From Chitinophagaceae bacterium (GTDB lineage: Bacteria; Bacteroidota; Bacteroidia; Chitinophagales; Chitinophagaceae): DNA of 64,000 nt. The DNA is taken from NCBI GenBank assembly GCA_947488765.1, contig CANLAE010000011.1:1-64000 (forward strand). Direction: 5' to 3'. The notes under the pieces were generated by a model. That model made no database searches, was not told the DNA's origin, and was given only the letters and a program-made list of their open reading frames with translations. Below are positions 3,501 to 45,654 of the stretch, piece by piece (the stretch's first letter is position 1; each line of letters starts with the position of its first letter). A program made the position numbers and the translations under genes.

Positions 3501-5215
3501 CAGAGTCTAAATTGGTTAATGTTAAACTATCGGTTGTAGAAAAATATTTAAGCAGTATTTTTTCTCATTTTGACGGATATGGGAAAGGGGTATTAAAAAT
3601 CAGTGGCAATCCTGATAATTTAAATTTTTTAGGAGATGTGAAAATACATGATGCCGGAATGATGGTAAATTATACGCAAGTATATTATTGCATAGATACT
3701 GCTACTATTAAGTTTGAAGAAGATGGTATCAATTGCGGTACAATAAACATTAGGGATAAATATAACAACAAGGGTATTGTAAAAGGAAAATTGTATGAAC
3801 GAGGATTTAAGGATATGATTTTTGATTTTGATTTAGCTACCAAAAAATTATTGTTGATAGATACGAAAGCCAAAGACAATGAACAGTTTTATGGAAAAGC
3901 AATTGGCAAGGCAAATCTTAGTTTCAAGGGGCCCGAAAGCAATTCTAAATTGGTAATCGTTGGTGAAGCCAATGATACATCACATATCTATTTACCAATT
4001 AGTAGCAGTAAGGAAAGCGGTGAGGCAGATTTTATAGTTTTTAAAGAATTTGGTGAAGAGATTATACAACAAAAATCTGAGAATAAATTTAATCTATCTG
4101 TTGATTTAGATTTAACAGCAAATAACAAAGTTGATATTGATGTAATCTTAGATGAGGCAGAAGGCGATGTGATTAAAGCATCTGGAAATGGTCGTTTAAG
4201 AATCAAAGCAGGGACCAATGAAAAATTGGATATTCGAGGCAGATATAATATAGAAAATGGCTTGTACGACTTCAACTTTCAATCCATTATTAAACGACCA
4301 TTTTTGTTATTACCTCAGTCTGGTAATTATATAGAATGGAGTGGCGATCCATTCAAAGCAGAATTACATGTTGATGCACAATATGAAGCTGAAAATATTA
4401 GTCTTGCTGATTTGCTGAATAATGCAAATTTCGGATCAAACGACAACTCATTAAAAGCACAAAGAGGGCCGGTTTATATTATTGCTCAACTAAGAGATAA
4501 ATTAATACAACCAACCATTAAATTTAAAATTGATTTTCCACAAAATAGTCCTGCAAAAACAGACCCTAGTTTCAGACAATTTTTAGCTCGAATTGAAAAG
4601 GATGACAACGAAATGCTGACTCAGGCAACGTCATTAATTGTATTCAAAACATTTACACCTTATGGTCAGGGTTTAATAGGTGGTGGGGCTGCAAGTTCAA
4701 TCAATTATAGTTCATTGGGGATTAATACTATTTCACAAAAAATAACAACAGAAATAAACAAACAAGTCTCAAATGTTTTATTCAAATTATTCAAAGACAA
4801 GAACTTGAAATTTGATTTGGGTTCGTCGGTATACAGCAGCTCTAATTTATTCAATACCAACTTAAGTGCAACAAACAACAACAAGCTTGACAGAACAAGG
4901 GTTAACTTTAAAATTGGCAGGAGTTTTCTCAACAATAAATTATTGGTAACATTTGGTGGCGACCTTGATTTTAATGTTGGAAATACAGCAGCACAAAGCG
5001 GTAATTTGCAATGGCTACCTGATTTGAATATTGAATATATTATTTCTCAAAGTAATAATTCTAAATTACTAGGTATTGCTTTCAGCAAAAATAGTTTGGA
5101 CATTAGCGGCTTTACTTTAGGTAGCAGAAACAGAAAAGGTGTAAGTATTTCTTACAGAACTGAATCTAATACCTTCCCCATATTCGGGAAAAAAGAAGAA
5201 ATAAATAACAAATAA
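503..5215 (+). CDS. TamB/AsmA-like translocation and assembly module protein
   Basis: A roughly 1570-residue protein with one N-terminal membrane anchor followed by a very long run of beta-rich, Asn/Ser/Lys-rich sequence and a C-terminal TamB (DUF490) domain. Near the end are FDLGSSVYSS and GRSFLNNKLLVTFGGDLDF, the kind of short barrel-like strands seen at the end of TamB proteins. Family members bridge inner and outer membrane and take part in outer-membrane protein insertion or lipid transport; which applies here is unknown. The start is doubtful: TTG 503 or GTG 506 are the first usual codons, but the frame is open back to a stop at 455-457, and a CTG at 467 followed by KKTLKIFRYIFLVII would give the positively charged n-region normal for this anchor. 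The true protein is therefore probably 12 residues longer. The gene stands alone and converges on rpoC. Confidence 0.88.
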   Translation: MVIIALVLLLWIAIQLTPVQNWLVGIATKKLSKELQTEVSIKHVSFSFFNKANLEGTFIQDKKKDTLLYAGKLKVSITDWFFLKDKAELKYIGLEDATIKLNRKDSIWNYQFIADYFSSPKKKEKKGSVSLRFKKIDLKNIRFIQNDLWSGENLTCNLSSLSLDADNINFDNNTISLNSLEIDRPYVSIKSYDGLKPIVPAYKKIIDTGLLLNPSRIRLLVKNLTITNGSFIDDADDDKPTTYFDGAHLNITKINANCRNIDLRNDTITANISITCKDRSGIEIKSLTANFKVTPQIMEFAKLDLQTNKSRLGNYYAMKYQHFNKDFGDYETKVIMKANFKPSTIHSDDIAYFAPELKSWALKAIIAGSFDGTVSDFSTKNLFLKTKSSSIYGNLSMKGLPDIDKTIINFTNGNIITNYQDLCTIVPDLKGMKNPNLAALGSINYKGFFNGYYNNFSAKGIINSALGNVLADLKLTFPANKEPTYDGIIGSSQFNLGGLINTPSIGNIDFNGKIKGYSFNPEKLKTDFEGQFNQFQFNDYNYTNISTSGTFENKTFTGNLKINDPNVDLTSGMQIDFSSNQPRYNLFGDLVNFNFKNTNFTKDNLELTGTLDVNFSGTNIDNFLGEAKLLNAIVKSNDDEIKFDSLNLVSSFINNIKNLKISGSDFMAGISGEFNILDLPNSLQSFLHKYYPSYVSAPNSTPKNQDFSFRVNTNYIDPYLKLFDKKLSGLNDINIEGSINTKQNQFQVLFQVPYFKYDTYSFTGIDLKGDGNLDSLAMIGSITSTQLNDSFYLPTSKINITSSNDHSIVSIKTKANNTLNDASLLADVFTLDDGIRLQFRPSSFVINEKKWNIDTDGELVLRKSYVSAKKLKLVQGLQEINIATENEEDNNSSNLIVQLSNVVLGDFTSMFFKDPKLEGITSGKIKLKDFFGNFEAESDLKVEQMRLDQDSIGRIELKAGFTKKTGVVSWDLNSNNKDYNFTSKGTYNTKDSAKSSPLYTESKLVNVKLSVVEKYLSSIFSHFDGYGKGVLKISGNPDNLNFLGDVKIHDAGMMVNYTQVYYCIDTATIKFEEDGINCGTINIRDKYNNKGIVKGKLYERGFKDMIFDFDLATKKLLLIDTKAKDNEQFYGKAIGKANLSFKGPESNSKLVIVGEANDTSHIYLPISSSKESGEADFIVFKEFGEEIIQQKSENKFNLSVDLDLTANNKVDIDVILDEAEGDVIKASGNGRLRIKAGTNEKLDIRGRYNIENGLYDFNFQSIIKRPFLLLPQSGNYIEWSGDPFKAELHVDAQYEAENISLADLLNNANFGSNDNSLKAQRGPVYIIAQLRDKLIQPTIKFKIDFPQNSPAKTDPSFRQFLARIEKDDNEMLTQATSLIVFKTFTPYGQGLIGGGAASSINYSSLGINTISQKITTEINKQVSNVLFKLFKDKNLKFDLGSSVYSSSNLFNTNLSATNNNKLDRTRVNFKIGRSFLNNKLLVTFGGDLDFNVGNTAAQSGNLQWLPDLNIEYIISQSNNSKLLGIAFSKNSLDISGFTLGSRNRKGVSISYRTESNTFPIFGKKEEINNK

Positions 5216-5325
5216 ATGTACAATCCTAAATTGGATATTTACCCACCATCATCTATAAATTTATTTCAATTTAGTTAGAAAATAATACGCTTGAATTAAA
5301 TTAGATAGCAGAATATTAGACATTA

Positions 5326-5361
5326 AAAAGGGGCAAAAAGTATATACTTTTTGCCCCTTTT
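5326..5361. terminator. Bidirectional terminator between tamB-like gene and rpoC
   Basis: A perfect 17-bp inverted repeat (5326-5342 and 5345-5361) built on aaaaggggcaaaaagta, with A-rich left and T-rich right flanks, so it has a U-tract in both directions. It lies between two convergent genes and should stop both transcripts. Confidence 0.9.
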
Positions 5362-5396
5362 ATTTATTCATAAAATTCATTTAACTAAATGAATTT

Positions 5397-8300
5397 TTAT
5401 TCTTCTTCATCAAAGCTCATTGCTTCACGAGTAGCAGATAAAACTTCATATTCTTCTTTACTACCTACAATCAAGTTTTCAAAGTCACGCTGACCAGTAC
5501 CTGCAGGAATTAAATGACCTGTAATTACATTCTCTTTTAATCCGATCATATAATCTGCTTTACCATTAATTGCAGCGGTGCTTAGTACTTTAGTAGTCTC
5601 TTGGAATGATGCAGCACTTATCCAGCTTTGTACTCCCAAGGAAGCTTTTGTAATACCTAATAAAACCGGAGTTGCAGTAGCAGGTTTAGCATCACGAACT
5701 TCTACTAGTTTTTTATCAGCACGACGTAAGATAGAGTTTTCTTCTCTAAACTCACGAAGTGTAACAATTTGTCCAGCTCTCATTTTTGTACTTTCGCCAG
5801 GCTCTGTAACTACTTTTTTATCAAATATTCTGTCATTCTCATCAATGAAGTCAAATCTGTCTTCCAAATCTTCTTCTAAGAATTTAGTATCGCCTGCATC
5901 TACAATTTCTACCTTCTTCATCATTTGACGAACAATTACTTCAACGTGCTTATCATTGATACGCACACCTTGTAAACGGTATACTTCTTGTATTTCATTT
6001 ACTACATATTCCTGAACTGCAAATGGTCCTTTAATATTTAAAATATCATAAGGAGCAATTTGACCATCGGATAATGGAGCACCTGCTTTTACAAAATCAC
6101 CATCCTGAACTAAAATTTGACGAGACAATGGAACTAAGTATTTCTTAGTCATACCATCTTTTGCTTCTACCATAATCTCTCTGTTACCACGCTTTACATT
6201 TCCAAAAGTAACTACACCATCAATTTCACAAACAACGGCAGGATTACCAGGATTTCTAGCTTCAAATAATTCTGTAACACGAGGAAGACCACCCGTAATA
6301 TCCCTCAATTTACCCAATACACGTGGTATTTTAACCAATACCTGAGCAGCTTTTACTTCATCTCCTTCTTCTACAGCGATATGGCTACCTACAGGTAAGT
6401 TATAATGCTTCATATCCTTGCCTTCAACAATGATAGTAGCTAACTTGGTTTTATCTTTTGTTTCAATTACCACTTTTTCGCGGTGACCTGTTTGGTCATC
6501 GCTTTCCTCGCGGTAAGTAATACCATCTAAAATGCTTTCAAACTTAATAGTACCTTGTTGTTCAGCAACAATTACATTATTAAATGGATCCCAAGTACAA
6601 ATAACATCTCCTTTTTTAACTTGTTGACCATCTTTAACAGTCAATGTGCTACCATAAGGAACGTTATTGGTAATAAGTAATCTGTCGTTTTTCACATCCA
6701 TGATTCTTACCTCACCTGTTCTTCCGATAACAACATTTACTTTTTTACCTTCATTATTCAATGTGCTTACTGTACGCAAACCATCAAACTGAATTGTACC
6801 ATCAAATCTTGCATTTAATGAAGATTCAATATTTGCACTTCCTGCCACACCACCTACGTGGAATGTACGAAGTGTAAGCTGTGTACCAGGCTCACCAATA
6901 CTTTGAGCTGCAATAATACCAACAGCATCTCCACGTTGTGCAATGTAACCTGTAGCTAAGTTTTTGCCATAACATTTCACACACACCCCACGTTTAGCTT
7001 CGCATGTAAGTACACTTCTGATTTCAACAGTTTCAATTCCACACTCTTCAATAAACTTAGCAACATCAGTGCTAATTTCTTCGCCTGCATTGATAATTAG
7101 TTCATCGTTTAATGGATTAATTACATCATGCAATGAAGTTCTACCTTCAATTCTATCTGCCAAACCTTCAATTACATCTTCATTATCTTTTAATGCACTT
7201 GTAGCAATACCACGAAGTGTACCACAATCATCATCAGCAATTACAACATCTTGAGCAACGTCTACCAATCTACGAGTTAAGTATCCTGCATCCGCAGTTT
7301 TCAAAGCCGTATCTGCAAGACCTTTTCTAGCTCCATGTGTACTAATGAAATAATCCAATACGTTCAAGCCACCTTTAAAGTTTGATAAGATTGGATTTTC
7401 AATTACTTCACTTCCTGTGCTACCACTTTTTCTTGGTTTTGCCATCAATCCCCTGATACCTACCAACTGCTTAACCTGTGTTTTACTACCTCTAGCTCCA
7501 CTATCCAACATCATGAAAACAGAGTTGAATCCTTGCTTATCAGTAGCCATTTCACGGATAAGTGTTTCCGTAATTTTCATATCCACTCTACCCCATATAT
7601 CAATTACCTGATTGTAACGTTCGTTGTTGGTAATTAAACCCATGTTGTAGTTATCCCAAACTTCTTCTACTTCAACCTTAGCACTATCCAATAATTCATT
7701 TCTCTGATCTGGAACAATTAAGTCATTAACGCTAAATGATAATCCACCTTTGAATGCCATACGGAATCCAAGTGTTTTTATTTCATCTAAGAATTTTGCT
7801 GTAGTAGGTATATTGGTAATTTTAATGATATCACCAATAATTTCTCTCAAGCTTTTCTTTGTTAATAACGCATTTACATAACCAACTTCCTTAGGTACAA
7901 ATTGATTGAAAAGAACTCTACCAACAGTAGTATCAATTAATCTTTTTACCAGTACACCACCTTCACGAACATTGGTACGTACTTTAATGCCTGCATGTAA
8001 ATCAATTGCACCTTCATTGTATGCAATAACCACTTCATCAAGGCTATAAAATGCTTTACCCTCTCCTTTTACAATTTCTGTTGGAGTTGATTTCTTAACT
8101 TTAGTAATATAGTATAAGCCCAACACCATGTCCTGAGAAGGAAGGGTAATTGGAGTACCATTTTGAGGGTTCAAAATGTTGTGTGAACTCAACATTAGTA
8201 ATTGAGCCTCTAACACAGCAGCACTGCTCAAAGGAACGTGAACGGCCATTTGGTCACCATCAAAATCCGCATTAAATGATGCTGTAACCAACGGATGTAA

Positions 8301-9683
8301 TTGTATTGCCTTACCTTCTACCAATTTTGGCTGGAAAGATTGTATAGACAAACGGTGCAATGTTGGGGCACGATTCAATAATATTGGATGACCTTTTAAT
8401 ATATTTTCTAAGATATCCCAAATAACAGCTTCTTTTTTATCAACTAATTTCTTAGCAGATTTTACTGTTTTTACGATACCTCTTTCAATTAGTTTTCTAA
8501 TAATAAATGGCTTAAACAATTCTGCAGCCATATCTTTAGGTAATCCGCACTCATGCATTTTCAACTCTGGTCCTACCACAATTACAGAACGACCTGAATA
8601 GTCAACACGCTTACCCAATAAGTTCTGACGGAAACGACCTTGCTTACCTTTAAGTACATCACTCAATGATTTTAAAGGACGACCACCTTCTGCTTTTACA
8701 GCATTGGATTTACGGCTGTTATCAAACAAGCTATCAATTGCTTCTTGTAACATCCTTTTTTCATTTCTCAAGATTACTTCTGGAGCTTTAATTTCCATCA
8801 ATCTTTTCAAACGATTATTTCTGATGATTACACGTCTGTATAAATCATTTAAATCAGAACTTGCAAAACGACCACCATCTAAAGGAACCAATGGTCTTAA
8901 TTCTGGTGGAATTACAGGGATGTATTGCATCACCATCCATTCTGGACGATTGGTAATACGTTCGCTGCTATCTCTAAATGCTTCAACAACACTCAAACGT
9001 TTTAAAGCATCAGCTTTACGTTGTTGAGATGTTTCATTTGCTGCAGCATTTCTTAATTGATAACTTAATTCATCCAAATCCAATCTTTCTAACAAATCAT
9101 GTACTGCTTCAGCACCCATTTTAGCAATAAACTTTTGTGGGTCTTCATCTGGCAAATACTGATTTTCTTTAGGTAACCCATCAATAATATCTAAGTATTC
9201 TTCTTCAGTTAATAAATCTCCGGTTCCTAAGGTTTCTTTTATACCACCCTGAATTACTACATATCTTTCGTAGTAAACAATTGTTTCTAATTTTTTTGAG
9301 CTTACACCTAATAAGTAACCAATTTTATTTGGTAAACTTTTGAAGTACCAAATATGTACAACAGGTACTACTAATTTGATGTGACCCATTCTCTCACGAC
9401 GAACTTTTTTCTCAGTTACTTCAACACCACATCTGTCACACACAATACCTTTATAACGAATACGCTTGTACTTTCCGCAAGCACACTCATAATCTTTTAC
9501 AGGTCCAAAAATTCTTTCGCAAAATAAACCATCTCTTTCCGGCTTATACGTACGGTAGTTAATGGTTTCAGGTTTTAATACTTCGCCAAAACTTCTTTCC
9601 AAAATACTGTCTGGAGAAGCAAGGCTGATGGTGATTTGTGAAAATGCACTCCTAGGTTTGTTGTATTCTCTTTTGATTGCCAT
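5397..9683 (-). CDS. rpoC: DNA-directed RNA polymerase subunit beta'
   Basis: The beta' subunit of RNA polymerase, 1428 residues from ATG 9683, where the family's usual N-terminus ([14 protein letters not shown]) begins; an in-frame 24-residue extension upstream is unlike the family. Seen in the sequence: the first zinc-ribbon cysteines C67, C69, C82 and C85; the catalytic magnesium loop NADFDGDQM at 471-479; and the second zinc site C820, C894, C901 and C904. All key residues are present and the length is normal for Bacteroidota. Unusually, rpoB is not upstream: der lies there, and rpoB is about 50 kb away on the same strand. The 600-bp gap upstream contains a promoter-like TAnnTTTG box, so rpoC is probably transcribed from its own promoter. 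Confidence 0.98.
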
Positions 9684-42764: not shown

Positions 42765-42920
42765 TTTTATTATGATTTTAAGACTACAATGTAAAGTTTT
42801 TGTACGAAAAAGAACCTATTTGTTGGTGAATTAAATCAAATTAACACTAATTCAAAATTATTGAATTACTTGTTAAATCTACTGATCTTTATCAATGTTC
42901 TATTGGATTTAAAAAATAAA

Positions 42921-42949
42921 AAAAGGCTTCAATTGCTTGAAACCTTTTT
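42921..42949 (-). terminator. Terminator downstream of the tRNA-Val fragment
   Basis: 12-bp stem (one U-G pair on the reverse strand; arms 42921-42932 and 42937-42948) with a 4-nt loop and a T-rich tract on the reverse strand. It sits in the position of a tRNA terminator relative to the truncated tRNA copy and was probably the original terminator of the tRNA-Val gene. Confidence 0.7.
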
Positions 42950-42950
42950 T

Positions 42951-42996
42951 GTGGGAGTTGACGGGGTCGAACCGCCGACCCTCTGCTTGTAAGGCA
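42951..42996 (-). pseudogene. tRNA-Val 3' fragment (46 bp), probable att site
   Basis: Identical over 46 bp to 45579-45624. It covers the 3' part of tRNA-Val: anticodon loop with TAC, variable loop, T arm and acceptor 3' strand, and lacks the 5' part (D arm and acceptor 5' strand). The match stops inside the anticodon stem. This is the product expected at the far end of an element integrated into a tRNA gene. Confidence 0.85.
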
Positions 42997-43148
42997 ACCC
43001 ACATATAATTATTGATATTTACGTTTTGATAATAAATTACCCAGAAGATTTTGGAAATATAATTTTAGATGTTACAACAAAGGGAATTTTTCAATATTTA
43101 TTAATTATTATTTTTCTTTATTTTTAATTCTAAAACAAACTAACTGTT

Positions 43149-45188
43149 ATGAAAAAAATATGTTTCTCATTACTCTTTTTTTTATTCAATATAAATGGCA
43201 ATTCACAAATAATTATAAATACTGATACTATAATACGAGAAAATAATTATTGTGAGTTCAACGGAAAAAATATTAGTAGTAGTGCAACTTATTATCAAGG
43301 TAATTGCCAAGGTAACCAAGCAAATGGTTTTGGAACTTTACAGTTTGAAAATGGAACTTTAATGAAAGGTTATTTTACTAATAATAAAATTCAAGACCTG
43401 TATTTAGACTATTTATTTCAAAAAGAAAAATTGGTCGTAATTGGTCCAAATCAAGGATTTCTTCTTCATGGTCCTTGTATGTATATTAGAAATAACAATA
43501 TGGTTACTTTGGAAAATTTTAGCAATGGAAAATGGTTTAGTAATCGAATGGATTCATATACTATACCATCGCCTTCTGAAAAAGTTGAAGATATTTTAGC
43601 AATAAATACTGAAATTACTAACGATGGTGGCATCAACATCCCAAATACCAATTCTGTGCTGTTTATTTCATGTAAAAAGCCAAATAAAAAACGTGGTAAG
43701 GATTACAATGTTTTTTGGATTACACAATACGATATAGATAAAAACAAGGTTATAAATCAATTCGGTAATTATGATAACCCTATTTCTTATTCAGGAATTC
43801 CAGAATTTGTCACTTTTGATTCATTAAATAAGATTGCTTATTTCAAATTCATTAATGAAAAAAAATCAATTATATATGTTAAATGCAACTTAAACAACGG
43901 GCAAAAATCATTAATAAACACATTTGTAAAACCTATAACTGAATCTATTCGATTTGAACAAAAGTTGTATAACAGTGATTTTGAAAACTATCATGCAATA
44001 GGCAGAATTTATTTTACTAGTGATTTAAAGAATAAATATATTTTACTGAAGGATAGTTCTTATGTAAAAATATATTGTAAATACAACCCATTTTTGAATT
44101 CTAGTGATACAAGTCATGGAAGTATAATAATAAAATATTCTAAAAAACATGAGATTTTACAAAAAAAAATATTGCCAAACATTAATATATATGATTTTTG
44201 TATCGATGAAAAAAGCAATAGAATGGCTATTAATTCAAGGGATAATGAACATGTTTATTTAGAGTATTACAGCCTTAATAATTTTCTAAAATTATCGACT
44301 GTTTTTGCAAAAAAAACTAATAGTGATAATCCAATATTATTAGGAAAAGTTTCTTTTTCGAAAAATGGAATTTATTTGTTTTATCAAACTGGTTCATCCG
44401 GGGCACTAGGTACAACTATTTTTCTAAATAATAATTTATATTATGGGGTTGCGGGTGAAATTTTGGCCGAAAGCGAAAATGATAATGTTGTAATTACAAA
44501 TATTGATGATAATATTCTTGCTTTTGATCTCGAAAAAAAGAGAATTATTTGGCGTTATGATTTAGGTGTCGAAAGTCATGCAGTTTTTACAAATTCAAAC
44601 AATAACAATCTCTATATTATCAAGTGGAATACAAAATCAGATAAATTCTATTTTTTAAAATTTAAACTACCCAATCCTATAATTAATTTAAATTACTTTG
44701 TTCAAAAAGCAGATTTAAACTCAACTATAAATCAGGAAATTGAAGAAATAAAAATCAATGATTTAGACAAAAATGCTGACAAAACAAAGAACTTAATTAA
44801 ACCGAATAAAACAGTATATGAGCAGAAAAAAATGCCAACAGAAATAAAATATCAATACAACAAAACATCTGTAACAACTTGTAAATGGTGCAAAAAAAGA
44901 TTTAACTGTGAAAAAAATTCTAATGAGGCTATAGAATTAGGAAAATCTTTTTCAGCTGAAATGTACAAAATGGCACTTCAAAATAGAAACTCGGATGAAG
45001 TTATGAGCAAAAATTTAAATGATGCAAAAAAGAGGTACGGAGTTGAGGATAACCCAGAAATTGACAATTTTGTAATGAACAAAGTTGATAAATATTTAAA
45101 AGAAATGTTGGTTATTAATATTTATAATTGTCCTGAATTTTGTTCGTTAAAATGTGAAACTGAATTTAATTTTTATAAAAATCATTAA
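43149..45188 (+). CDS. Exported MORN/propeller-like protein with C-terminal zinc-finger-like motif
   Basis: A 679-residue protein of unknown function. Seen: a signal peptide (MKKICFSLLFFLFNINGNSQ); a MORN-like repeat at about 55-80 (GFGTLQFENGTLMKGYF); from about 140 to 510, propeller-like strands with repeated short blades (FDSLNKIAYFKF, DEKSNRMAINS, ILAFDLEKKRIIWRYDLG); a lysine/asparagine-rich linker; and a Cys-rich C-terminus with CKWCKKRFNC and CPEFCSLKC, spacing like a treble-clef zinc finger. Signal peptide plus zinc finger is an odd combination. It is the only gene in the tRNA-Val-flanked segment. Confidence 0.75.
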   Translation: MKKICFSLLFFLFNINGNSQIIINTDTIIRENNYCEFNGKNISSSATYYQGNCQGNQANGFGTLQFENGTLMKGYFTNNKIQDLYLDYLFQKEKLVVIGPNQGFLLHGPCMYIRNNNMVTLENFSNGKWFSNRMDSYTIPSPSEKVEDILAINTEITNDGGINIPNTNSVLFISCKKPNKKRGKDYNVFWITQYDIDKNKVINQFGNYDNPISYSGIPEFVTFDSLNKIAYFKFINEKKSIIYVKCNLNNGQKSLINTFVKPITESIRFEQKLYNSDFENYHAIGRIYFTSDLKNKYILLKDSSYVKIYCKYNPFLNSSDTSHGSIIIKYSKKHEILQKKILPNINIYDFCIDEKSNRMAINSRDNEHVYLEYYSLNNFLKLSTVFAKKTNSDNPILLGKVSFSKNGIYLFYQTGSSGALGTTIFLNNNLYYGVAGEILAESENDNVVITNIDDNILAFDLEKKRIIWRYDLGVESHAVFTNSNNNNLYIIKWNTKSDKFYFLKFKLPNPIINLNYFVQKADLNSTINQEIEEIKINDLDKNADKTKNLIKPNKTVYEQKKMPTEIKYQYNKTSVTTCKWCKKRFNCEKNSNEAIELGKSFSAEMYKMALQNRNSDEVMSKNLNDAKKRYGVEDNPEIDNFVMNKVDKYLKEMLVINIYNCPEFCSLKCETEFNFYKNH

Positions 45189-45536
45189 TTACATTCTGTA
45201 TAAATCATCAACATATTGTGAAAAAATTTCAGAAAGAGATAATTGCTTAAAATATTTTAATCACAATTCTATCGATCAACTGCACCATTAAGATTTTTGG
45301 TAGCCAAATTAAGAGAAATTATTAACGATAAAAAAGAATAAAAATTTAAATTCAAGTAATATTTAAAAAATTGGATTTTAGTACAGTTACATATGAAAAT
45401 ATTTGCACTAGTTTAGGGTGAAAGATAAATATATTTATGATTGTAGGTTAATAATGAAGGGTTTTATTCAATTTTTTTAAAACAAAACGAAAGGTTTCAA
45501 AGGCTAAAAACAGCTAAATGTTTAAACCAGAAAATA
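45189..45536. other. Non-coding part of the tRNA-Val-flanked segment
   Basis: About 350 bp with stops in all frames. One short frame (about 45280-45345) gives a protein-like string, LRFLVAKLREIINDKK, but is only some 25 codons between stops; it could be a decayed gene end. No repeat or tRNA seen. Confidence 0.4.
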
Positions 45537-45570
45537 AACAAGGGTTTCAGTTTTCACTGAAACCCTTGTT
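45537..45570 (-). terminator. tRNA-Val terminator
   Basis: Perfect 15-bp stem (aacaagggtttcagt / actgaaacccttgtt) with a 4-nt loop and T-rich tract on the reverse strand, 9 bp past the tRNA 3' end. Different in sequence from the terminator at 42921-42949. Confidence 0.9.
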
Positions 45571-45579
45571 GTTGTTGAG

Positions 45580-45654
45580 TGGGAGTTGACGGGGTCGAAC
45601 CGCCGACCCTCTGCTTGTAAGGCAGATGCTCTAAACCAACTGAGCTAAACTCCC
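45580..45654 (-). tRNA. tRNA-Val (TAC)
   Basis: A 75-nt cloverleaf with acceptor stem GGGAGTT / AACTCCC, anticodon TAC in loop CTTACAA, and normal D and T arms. CCA is not encoded. Its 3' part is duplicated at 42951-42996. Confidence 0.96.

Follow-up and report, generated by a model that had tools for sequence, protein, structure and literature searches.

The window analysed here is a 64,000-nucleotide stretch of a Chitinophagaceae bacterium genome (GCA_947488765.1, contig CANLAE010000011.1, positions 1 to 64,000). It contains an intact tRNA-Val (TAC) gene whose 3' 46 bp are repeated perfectly on the same (-) strand, at a start-to-start spacing of 2628 bp (Table 1); an earlier note, written from the sequence alone, had described such a repeat flanking 2.6 kb, and the description is accurate. 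In + coordinates the intact tRNA-Val forms the higher-coordinate end of the element, and is "proximal" only along the tRNA's own direction. Just two matches of such quality occur in the genome (2.5 Mb), the intact gene and the truncated copy. Ten further matches at E ≤ 10 extend over longer stretches at 72–86%, or reach 91–100% over 14–22 bases only. Just after each copy lies a terminator-like hairpin with its U tract (two found, 0.7 expected in the scanned region); the earlier note had assigned one to the truncated copy, and the intact tRNA proves to have its own. Upstream of the intact gene is a match to TTTG-N-TAnnTTTG, which we take to be the Bacteroidota-type promoter consensus; with eight matches in the window and 6.4 expected, this match is weak when taken alone.

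Table 1. Features of the tRNA-Val locus, listed along the direction of the tRNA gene
Feature	Position	Strand	Basis
Promoter match TTTG-N-TAnnTTTG upstream of intact tRNA-Val	45702-45672	-	Presumed Bacteroidota-type consensus
Intact tRNA-Val (TAC)	45579..45654	-	ARAGORN and repeat
Element-proximal attachment-site copy (3' 46 bp of intact tRNA-Val)	45579-45624	-	Repeat
Terminator-like hairpin after intact tRNA	45537..45570	-	Hairpin scan
Single arm-type repeat TGGTTTAAAC at +49 from core	45520..45529	-	10/10 match to arm of Hymenobacter sp. BRD67 element
Non-coding DNA on the proximal side (24.4% G+C); integrase remnant not found	45189..45578	.	Composition and tblastn
Cargo ORF, 679 aa	43149..45188	+	ORF list; fills usual integrase slot
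Non-coding DNA on the distal side (19.1% G+C); arm pair not clear	42997..43148	.	Composition and repeat tests
Element-distal attachment-site copy (truncated 3' tRNA-Val)	42951..42996	-	100% identity over 46 bp
Terminator-like hairpin after truncated copy	42919..42950	-	Hairpin scan

The DNA between the two tRNA-Val copies (2.58 kb) has a G+C content of 25.0%. None of 123 overlapping stretches of equal length from the window, some of which overlap the element itself, is lower (mean 33.2%, sd 2.1), and on this composition the element DNA appears to be of foreign origin. It contains a single ORF of at least 80 residues, referred to here as the cargo. No recombinase ORF was detected between the copies, and a tblastn search of the whole window with one tRNA-Val-type integrase as query detected no integrase remnant within the element (E ≤ 10). 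With the same query, a search restricted to the 391-bp proximal stretch gave a best E of 0.14. The earlier note's statement that the element carries no recombinase thus agrees with both the ORF list and this single-query search.

To compare the truncated core with similar loci, genome_contigs was scanned for copies of the 3' core in which the C that stands before it in the intact tRNA is replaced by another base. This pattern excludes elements with C before the core, so the 27 loci recovered are a subset. All 27 matches fall outside any predicted tRNA, and a tyrosine integrase was found by blastp in 26 of the 27 loci. The five queries were the integrase of viral contig L102 and four of the nine PF00589 matches of the source genome, a set that omits one match below cut-off and four whose loci are truncated by a contig end. 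In 25 of the 27 loci the first start codon of the integrase lies 30–197 bp inside the truncated copy and the gene reads away from it; L187 has integrases that are positioned otherwise. The only comparison locus without a detected integrase beside the truncated core is L178 (417–463), where the DNA next to the core resembles, by eye, the beginning of a transposase gene. An intact tRNA was found in all 25 genomes that were searched for it, the remaining two loci, L162 and L174, having already shown one, and the intact and truncated cores are identical in 25 of 27 pairings (L172 and L173 differ). The distal flank starts with TA in 20 of the 27 loci and does not in the window.

In 12 of these elements both copies lie on one contig, within a single locus for L162 and L174 and on contigs paired by length for the ten others. 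The 12 span 3.3–50 kb, and genome G023, a member of the same family, adds an element of 9.4 kb; the 2.6-kb window element is shorter than all 13. Among 394 family genomes the truncated core occurs in six, of which the five others all have an integrase and the window does not; by position, four of these five records seem to be the same as L162, L182, L183 and L186, and one is new. The tRNA-Val integrases scanned against Pfam (that of L102, the first one of L162, and those of L174 and G023) all exceed the cut-off for Phage_int_SAM_5, with Phage_integrase over cut-off in three of the four and Arm-DNA-bind_5 in two. Integration by a tyrosine recombinase, as the earlier note had read the arrangement, is strongly supported by this comparison, because 26 of the 27 truncated cores elsewhere have an integrase in their locus and because an integrase-bearing element occupies tRNA-Val within the same family. 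Following the logic of such integration, the hairpin beyond the truncated copy would be the original chromosomal terminator of the tRNA, and the hairpin after the intact gene would have been brought in by the element. Hairpins are similarly placed, by eye, in many of the comparison flanks, and the proximal hairpin region matches viral contig L102 at 87% over 95 nt, core included.

A tandem or segmental duplication of tRNA-Val could in principle have left a pseudogene fragment of this kind, with old chromosomal DNA between the copies, and partial tRNA-Val copies do occur near intact ones in G018 and G033. This origin is very improbable given that the copy begins where 27 other loci do (a position that the search pattern itself partly dictates), that different DNA follows the 3' end of the truncated copy, and that the composition looks foreign. 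The genus is represented by 10 genomes including the source genome, and no truncated tRNA-Val copy was detected in the nine others, which speaks against the old duplication common to relatives that the earlier note had named as its refuting case.

Many tRNA-Val elements carry typical arm-type sites, a pair of direct repeats of approximately 10 bp placed 10–12 bp apart. A 9/9 pair is present in 18 of the 27 distal flanks (off the usual place in L172), and a pair of at least 8/9 with its first copy at +41 to +53 follows 22 of 30 intact tRNAs, a sample that includes G005, a genome of the same genus, and second tRNA copies. The best pair in the 200-bp inner flanks of the window is 7/9 at both ends, with 91 and 72 of 100 shuffles as good. 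The power of this test is limited: eight of the 26 integrase-bearing loci (L163, L167, L170, L179, L182, L186, L187 and L188) also reach at most 8/9 with at least 12 of 100 shuffles as good, so the missing arms of the window are not conclusive. An 8/9 tandem pair lies 298 bp inside the distal copy, within the cargo ORF (no shuffle control). In 12 flanks after tRNA-Val from further genomes of the genus and family, most of them with no element known, no pair stands at the usual place; the G012 flank has a 9/9 pair at +140.

On the proximal side, the 10-bp sequence TGGTTTAAAC at +49 is identical to the arm that the tRNA-Val element of Hymenobacter sp. BRD67 carries at +48. This half-site was first spotted by inspection. 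None of 300 Markov controls reach 10/10 and 14 reach 9/10; in the control, 22 arm pairs and 26 offsets were searched again, with the arm definition taken as given. The tandem partner of the repeat is missing in the window. We read this single proximal repeat, with its partner gone, as a probable sign of a decayed attachment region. The best arm match in the distal flank is 8/10, reached at two of 143 offsets. Two 9-mers common to the inner flanks are AT-rich and were counted as chance.

Among the relatives, G005 belongs to a sister species (the neighboring aat protein is 92% identical) and is the only one seen with both flanks. Contig C11 of G005 aligns with the window as far as 42781, and contig C55 resumes the match from tRNA-Val. 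Beyond the match, C11 continues with a RadC-domain ORF and then, by eye, the start of an S74-type gene, while C55 opens inside an S74-domain gene; the two contigs are presumably neighbors. The C11 stretch contains no truncated core (best 21 of 46 positions). Immediately after its tRNA-Val, at +48, G005 has a tandem repeat that is equalled by 3 of 100 shuffles and is identical to the repeat of L174, an integrase-bearing element in another genome. The same tRNA-Val site thus appears to hold different DNA in two sister species, and since this other DNA lies between the same flanks the site is seemingly a hotspot. For the same reason no undisturbed empty site with these two flanks was found among the relatives, where the earlier note had suggested looking for one: the sole relative seen with both flanks has other DNA there.

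The G005 stretch (L081, on C55, 1–1309, and L080, 3276–5447) holds the RadC-domain ORF, the S74-type gene and the tandem arm repeat by tRNA-Val, and neither a truncated core nor an integrase was seen in it. This may be another remnant, distinct from that of the window, in the same tRNA-Val site. An additional terminator match, in G004, was not recovered by exact-string search and was dropped.

The source genome is assembled in 37 contigs, and a wrong contig join through the 46-bp repeat, or a mixture of strains, might in principle produce the observed layout. We regard such an artefact as highly unlikely. The same left and right flank genes seem to be neighbors in G005, on the presumed join of C11 and C55, where C11 ends and C55 begins inside what is apparently one S74-type gene. 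A 46-bp repeat is also short for modern assemblers.

The N-terminus of the 679-residue cargo reads by eye as a signal peptide and its C-terminus is, also by eye, Cys-rich. One MORN-like repeat is present (PDB MORN1, E 9.5e-6 over 38 residues; Pfam, E 0.19), together with a weak β-propeller-like region, and the MORN and propeller Pfam matches are all under the Pfam cut-offs. PHROGs gave one family of unknown function at E 0.029, and NCBIfam and PADLOC gave no families. The predicted structure has a mean pLDDT of 34, and the model is too poor to use. The cargo is a probable secreted or surface protein. The earlier note had described a single exported protein of this length; the single gene stands, as the sole ORF of at least 80 residues, and export is probable from the signal peptide read by eye.

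Matches to the cargo at E ≤ 0.01 were found in five of 59 relatives including its own genome, the other four being short and at E 0.001–0.01. Its own genome is the only one of 394 family genomes with a match at E ≤ 1e-5, two others among 395 phylum genomes reach E ≤ 0.001, and the nine other genomes of the genus give none. Plasmids and phages likewise gave none, and single-protein scans of genome_contigs and viral_contigs, which reach close relatives only, returned no relative. The strongest phylum match (L160, E 1.9e-6, 28% over 169 residues) reads by eye as a glycosyl hydrolase and was discounted; the remaining weak matches, where readable, are MORN repeats and β-propellers. No convincing homolog was therefore found among the relatives, the 394 family and 395 phylum genomes, the genome and viral contigs, the plasmids or the phages, and the same gene beside tRNA-Val in other genomes, for which the earlier note had proposed a search, did not turn up in these collections. 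Like the integrases in 25 of the 27 loci, the cargo ORF points away from the truncated copy, and with its start 152 bp inside that copy it lies in their slot. This placement may be a coincidence that followed a deletion.

The same tRNA-Val core occurs in nine viral contigs, in none of which ARAGORN finds a tRNA-Val. In the five that were scanned (L096, L097, L099 and L100 lay outside the scan), the ORF next to the core has integrase-family matches, with a full integrase in L102 and matches to Phage_integrase in L095, L098, L101 and L103, two of these four below the Pfam cut-off. These integrase-type ORFs beside the core indicate that phages, too, use the tRNA-Val site. In L095, L097, L099, L100 and L103 the core is bounded, by eye, by near-inverted repeats and not by tandem arms. 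A Phage_integrase protein adjoins the core in L095 and L103, and the distal flank of the window resembles these two phages by eye.

The source genome itself has nine PF00589 matches, eight over cut-off. Tyrosine integrase genes lie by tRNA-Met, tRNA-Asp and tRNA-Phe (L146, L148 and L149, on contigs C13, C32 and C1), and the genome probably has several tRNA-located islands. Neither perfect tandem repeats nor TGGTTTAAAC were found near these three integrases in the stretches examined. Two further tyrosine recombinases, at 4667–5908 and 8032–9072, are encoded on the 9.2-kb contig C34 (L147), which has no tRNA and no copy of the tRNA-Val core. No integrase of the source genome was found beside the tRNA-Val core; the two C34 recombinases are not placeable, which keeps a resident helper conceivable.

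The earlier note had left the choice between a satellite moved in trans and a degraded island. The former would be a minimal, one-gene cassette with intact attachment cores, mobilized by the integrase of another tRNA-Val-targeting element. It would fit the two perfect, identical 46-bp cores and the one remaining arm half-site, and possible helpers could be drawn from the phages and integrative elements with the same core that circulate (nine viral contigs) or from the two C34 recombinases, which are not tied to a tRNA. We nevertheless consider it unlikely: the tandem arm sites look incomplete at both ends, within the limited power of the test, a moving cassette should recur and no collection searched, none with a second strain of the species, holds a convincing copy of the cargo, and the source genome shows no integrase beside the core. 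Somewhat less probable still is a related arrangement, a one-gene mobile cassette between perfect tRNA-Val attachment sites, with the gene for a secreted protein standing in the integrase position and with a foreign integrase that moves it by recognizing the core together with the single arm repeat. The degraded island is preferred because the arms are incomplete, because no resident integrase lies by the tRNA-Val core and because the cargo has no convincing homolog.

We therefore favor, with a probability of roughly 0.78, a decayed, CIME-like remnant of a tyrosine-integrase element at tRNA-Val (TAC). The repeat, its layout, the lack of a detected integrase, the arm half-site and the integrase-bearing elements at the same core are direct observations; loss of an integrase, as opposed to its never having been present, is what we infer from them. 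An integrative element would have entered the 3' end of tRNA-Val (TAC) by means of a tyrosine integrase, most likely a Phage_int_SAM_5 enzyme, with crossover presumably in the anticodon region. The tRNA would have been rebuilt by the 3' end of the element, and its original 3' end and terminator pushed 2.6 kb away. Later losses would have taken away the integrase gene, the arm sites at the distal end and one repeat of the proximal pair, so that a single AT-rich gene remained, whose product is probably secreted or surface-located, if it is indeed exported. Lacking an integrase and with incomplete arms, the element is probably fixed in place, except for homologous recombination or accretion with an element newly inserted at this tRNA.

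The remnant can be set beside known classes of element. Cis-mobilizable elements (CIMEs), as described in PMC5704250, keep attL and attR and have lost their integration and transfer genes. By that description the likeness lies in the retained attachment cores and the lack of a detectable integrase. The window element differs in being small, in carrying a single gene and in having apparently lost part of its arm sites, and no tandem element was found; mobilization in cis by a neighbor may no longer work. The only ORF of at least 80 residues is the cargo, with no conjugation gene, and descent from a conjugative element, as the CIME comparison might imply, is conjectural. Genomic islands delimited by TIGER/Islander also have precise ends and often lie in tRNA genes, and according to PMC12424338 the software demands at least one integrase gene per island. 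The precise ends in a tRNA gene are alike; on that rule an integrase-less class falls outside the scope of the software. Literature searches that included tRNA-Val or Chitinophagaceae returned no publication.

As a single case the element is modest, one ordinary, stranded island. A more useful by-product is the anatomy of the tRNA-Val (TAC) integration site in Bacteroidota: a core that runs from the anticodon stem to the 3' end of the tRNA, a hairpin that follows the proximal core, in most elements an arm pair near +48 and, at the far end, an integrase that starts 30–197 bp inside. This anatomy allows integrase-less remnants to be recognized, whereas software such as TIGER/Islander needs an integrase gene (PMC12424338).

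The Bacteroidota tRNA-Val elements with a Phage_int_SAM_5 integrase (for example L162, 3.3 kb; L174, 5.6 kb; G023, 9.4 kb) use the same tRNA and core region as the window element. L162 and L174 further share with it a hairpin just beyond the proximal core and, near +48, an arm repeat. In contrast to the window, these tRNA-Val elements carry an integrase, mostly where the window has the 679-residue ORF, and most have paired arms, the G023 element showing no arm pair in the tandem-repeat test. The G023 element (L142, 3668–13183) encodes its integrase as a 355-residue ORF, for which Pfam reports the SAM-like domain only. The 3.3-kb element of L162 (4341–7694) contains little beyond two recombinase-like genes, one of the Phage_int_SAM_5 type and one with DUF6538 and a Phage_integrase match below cut-off.
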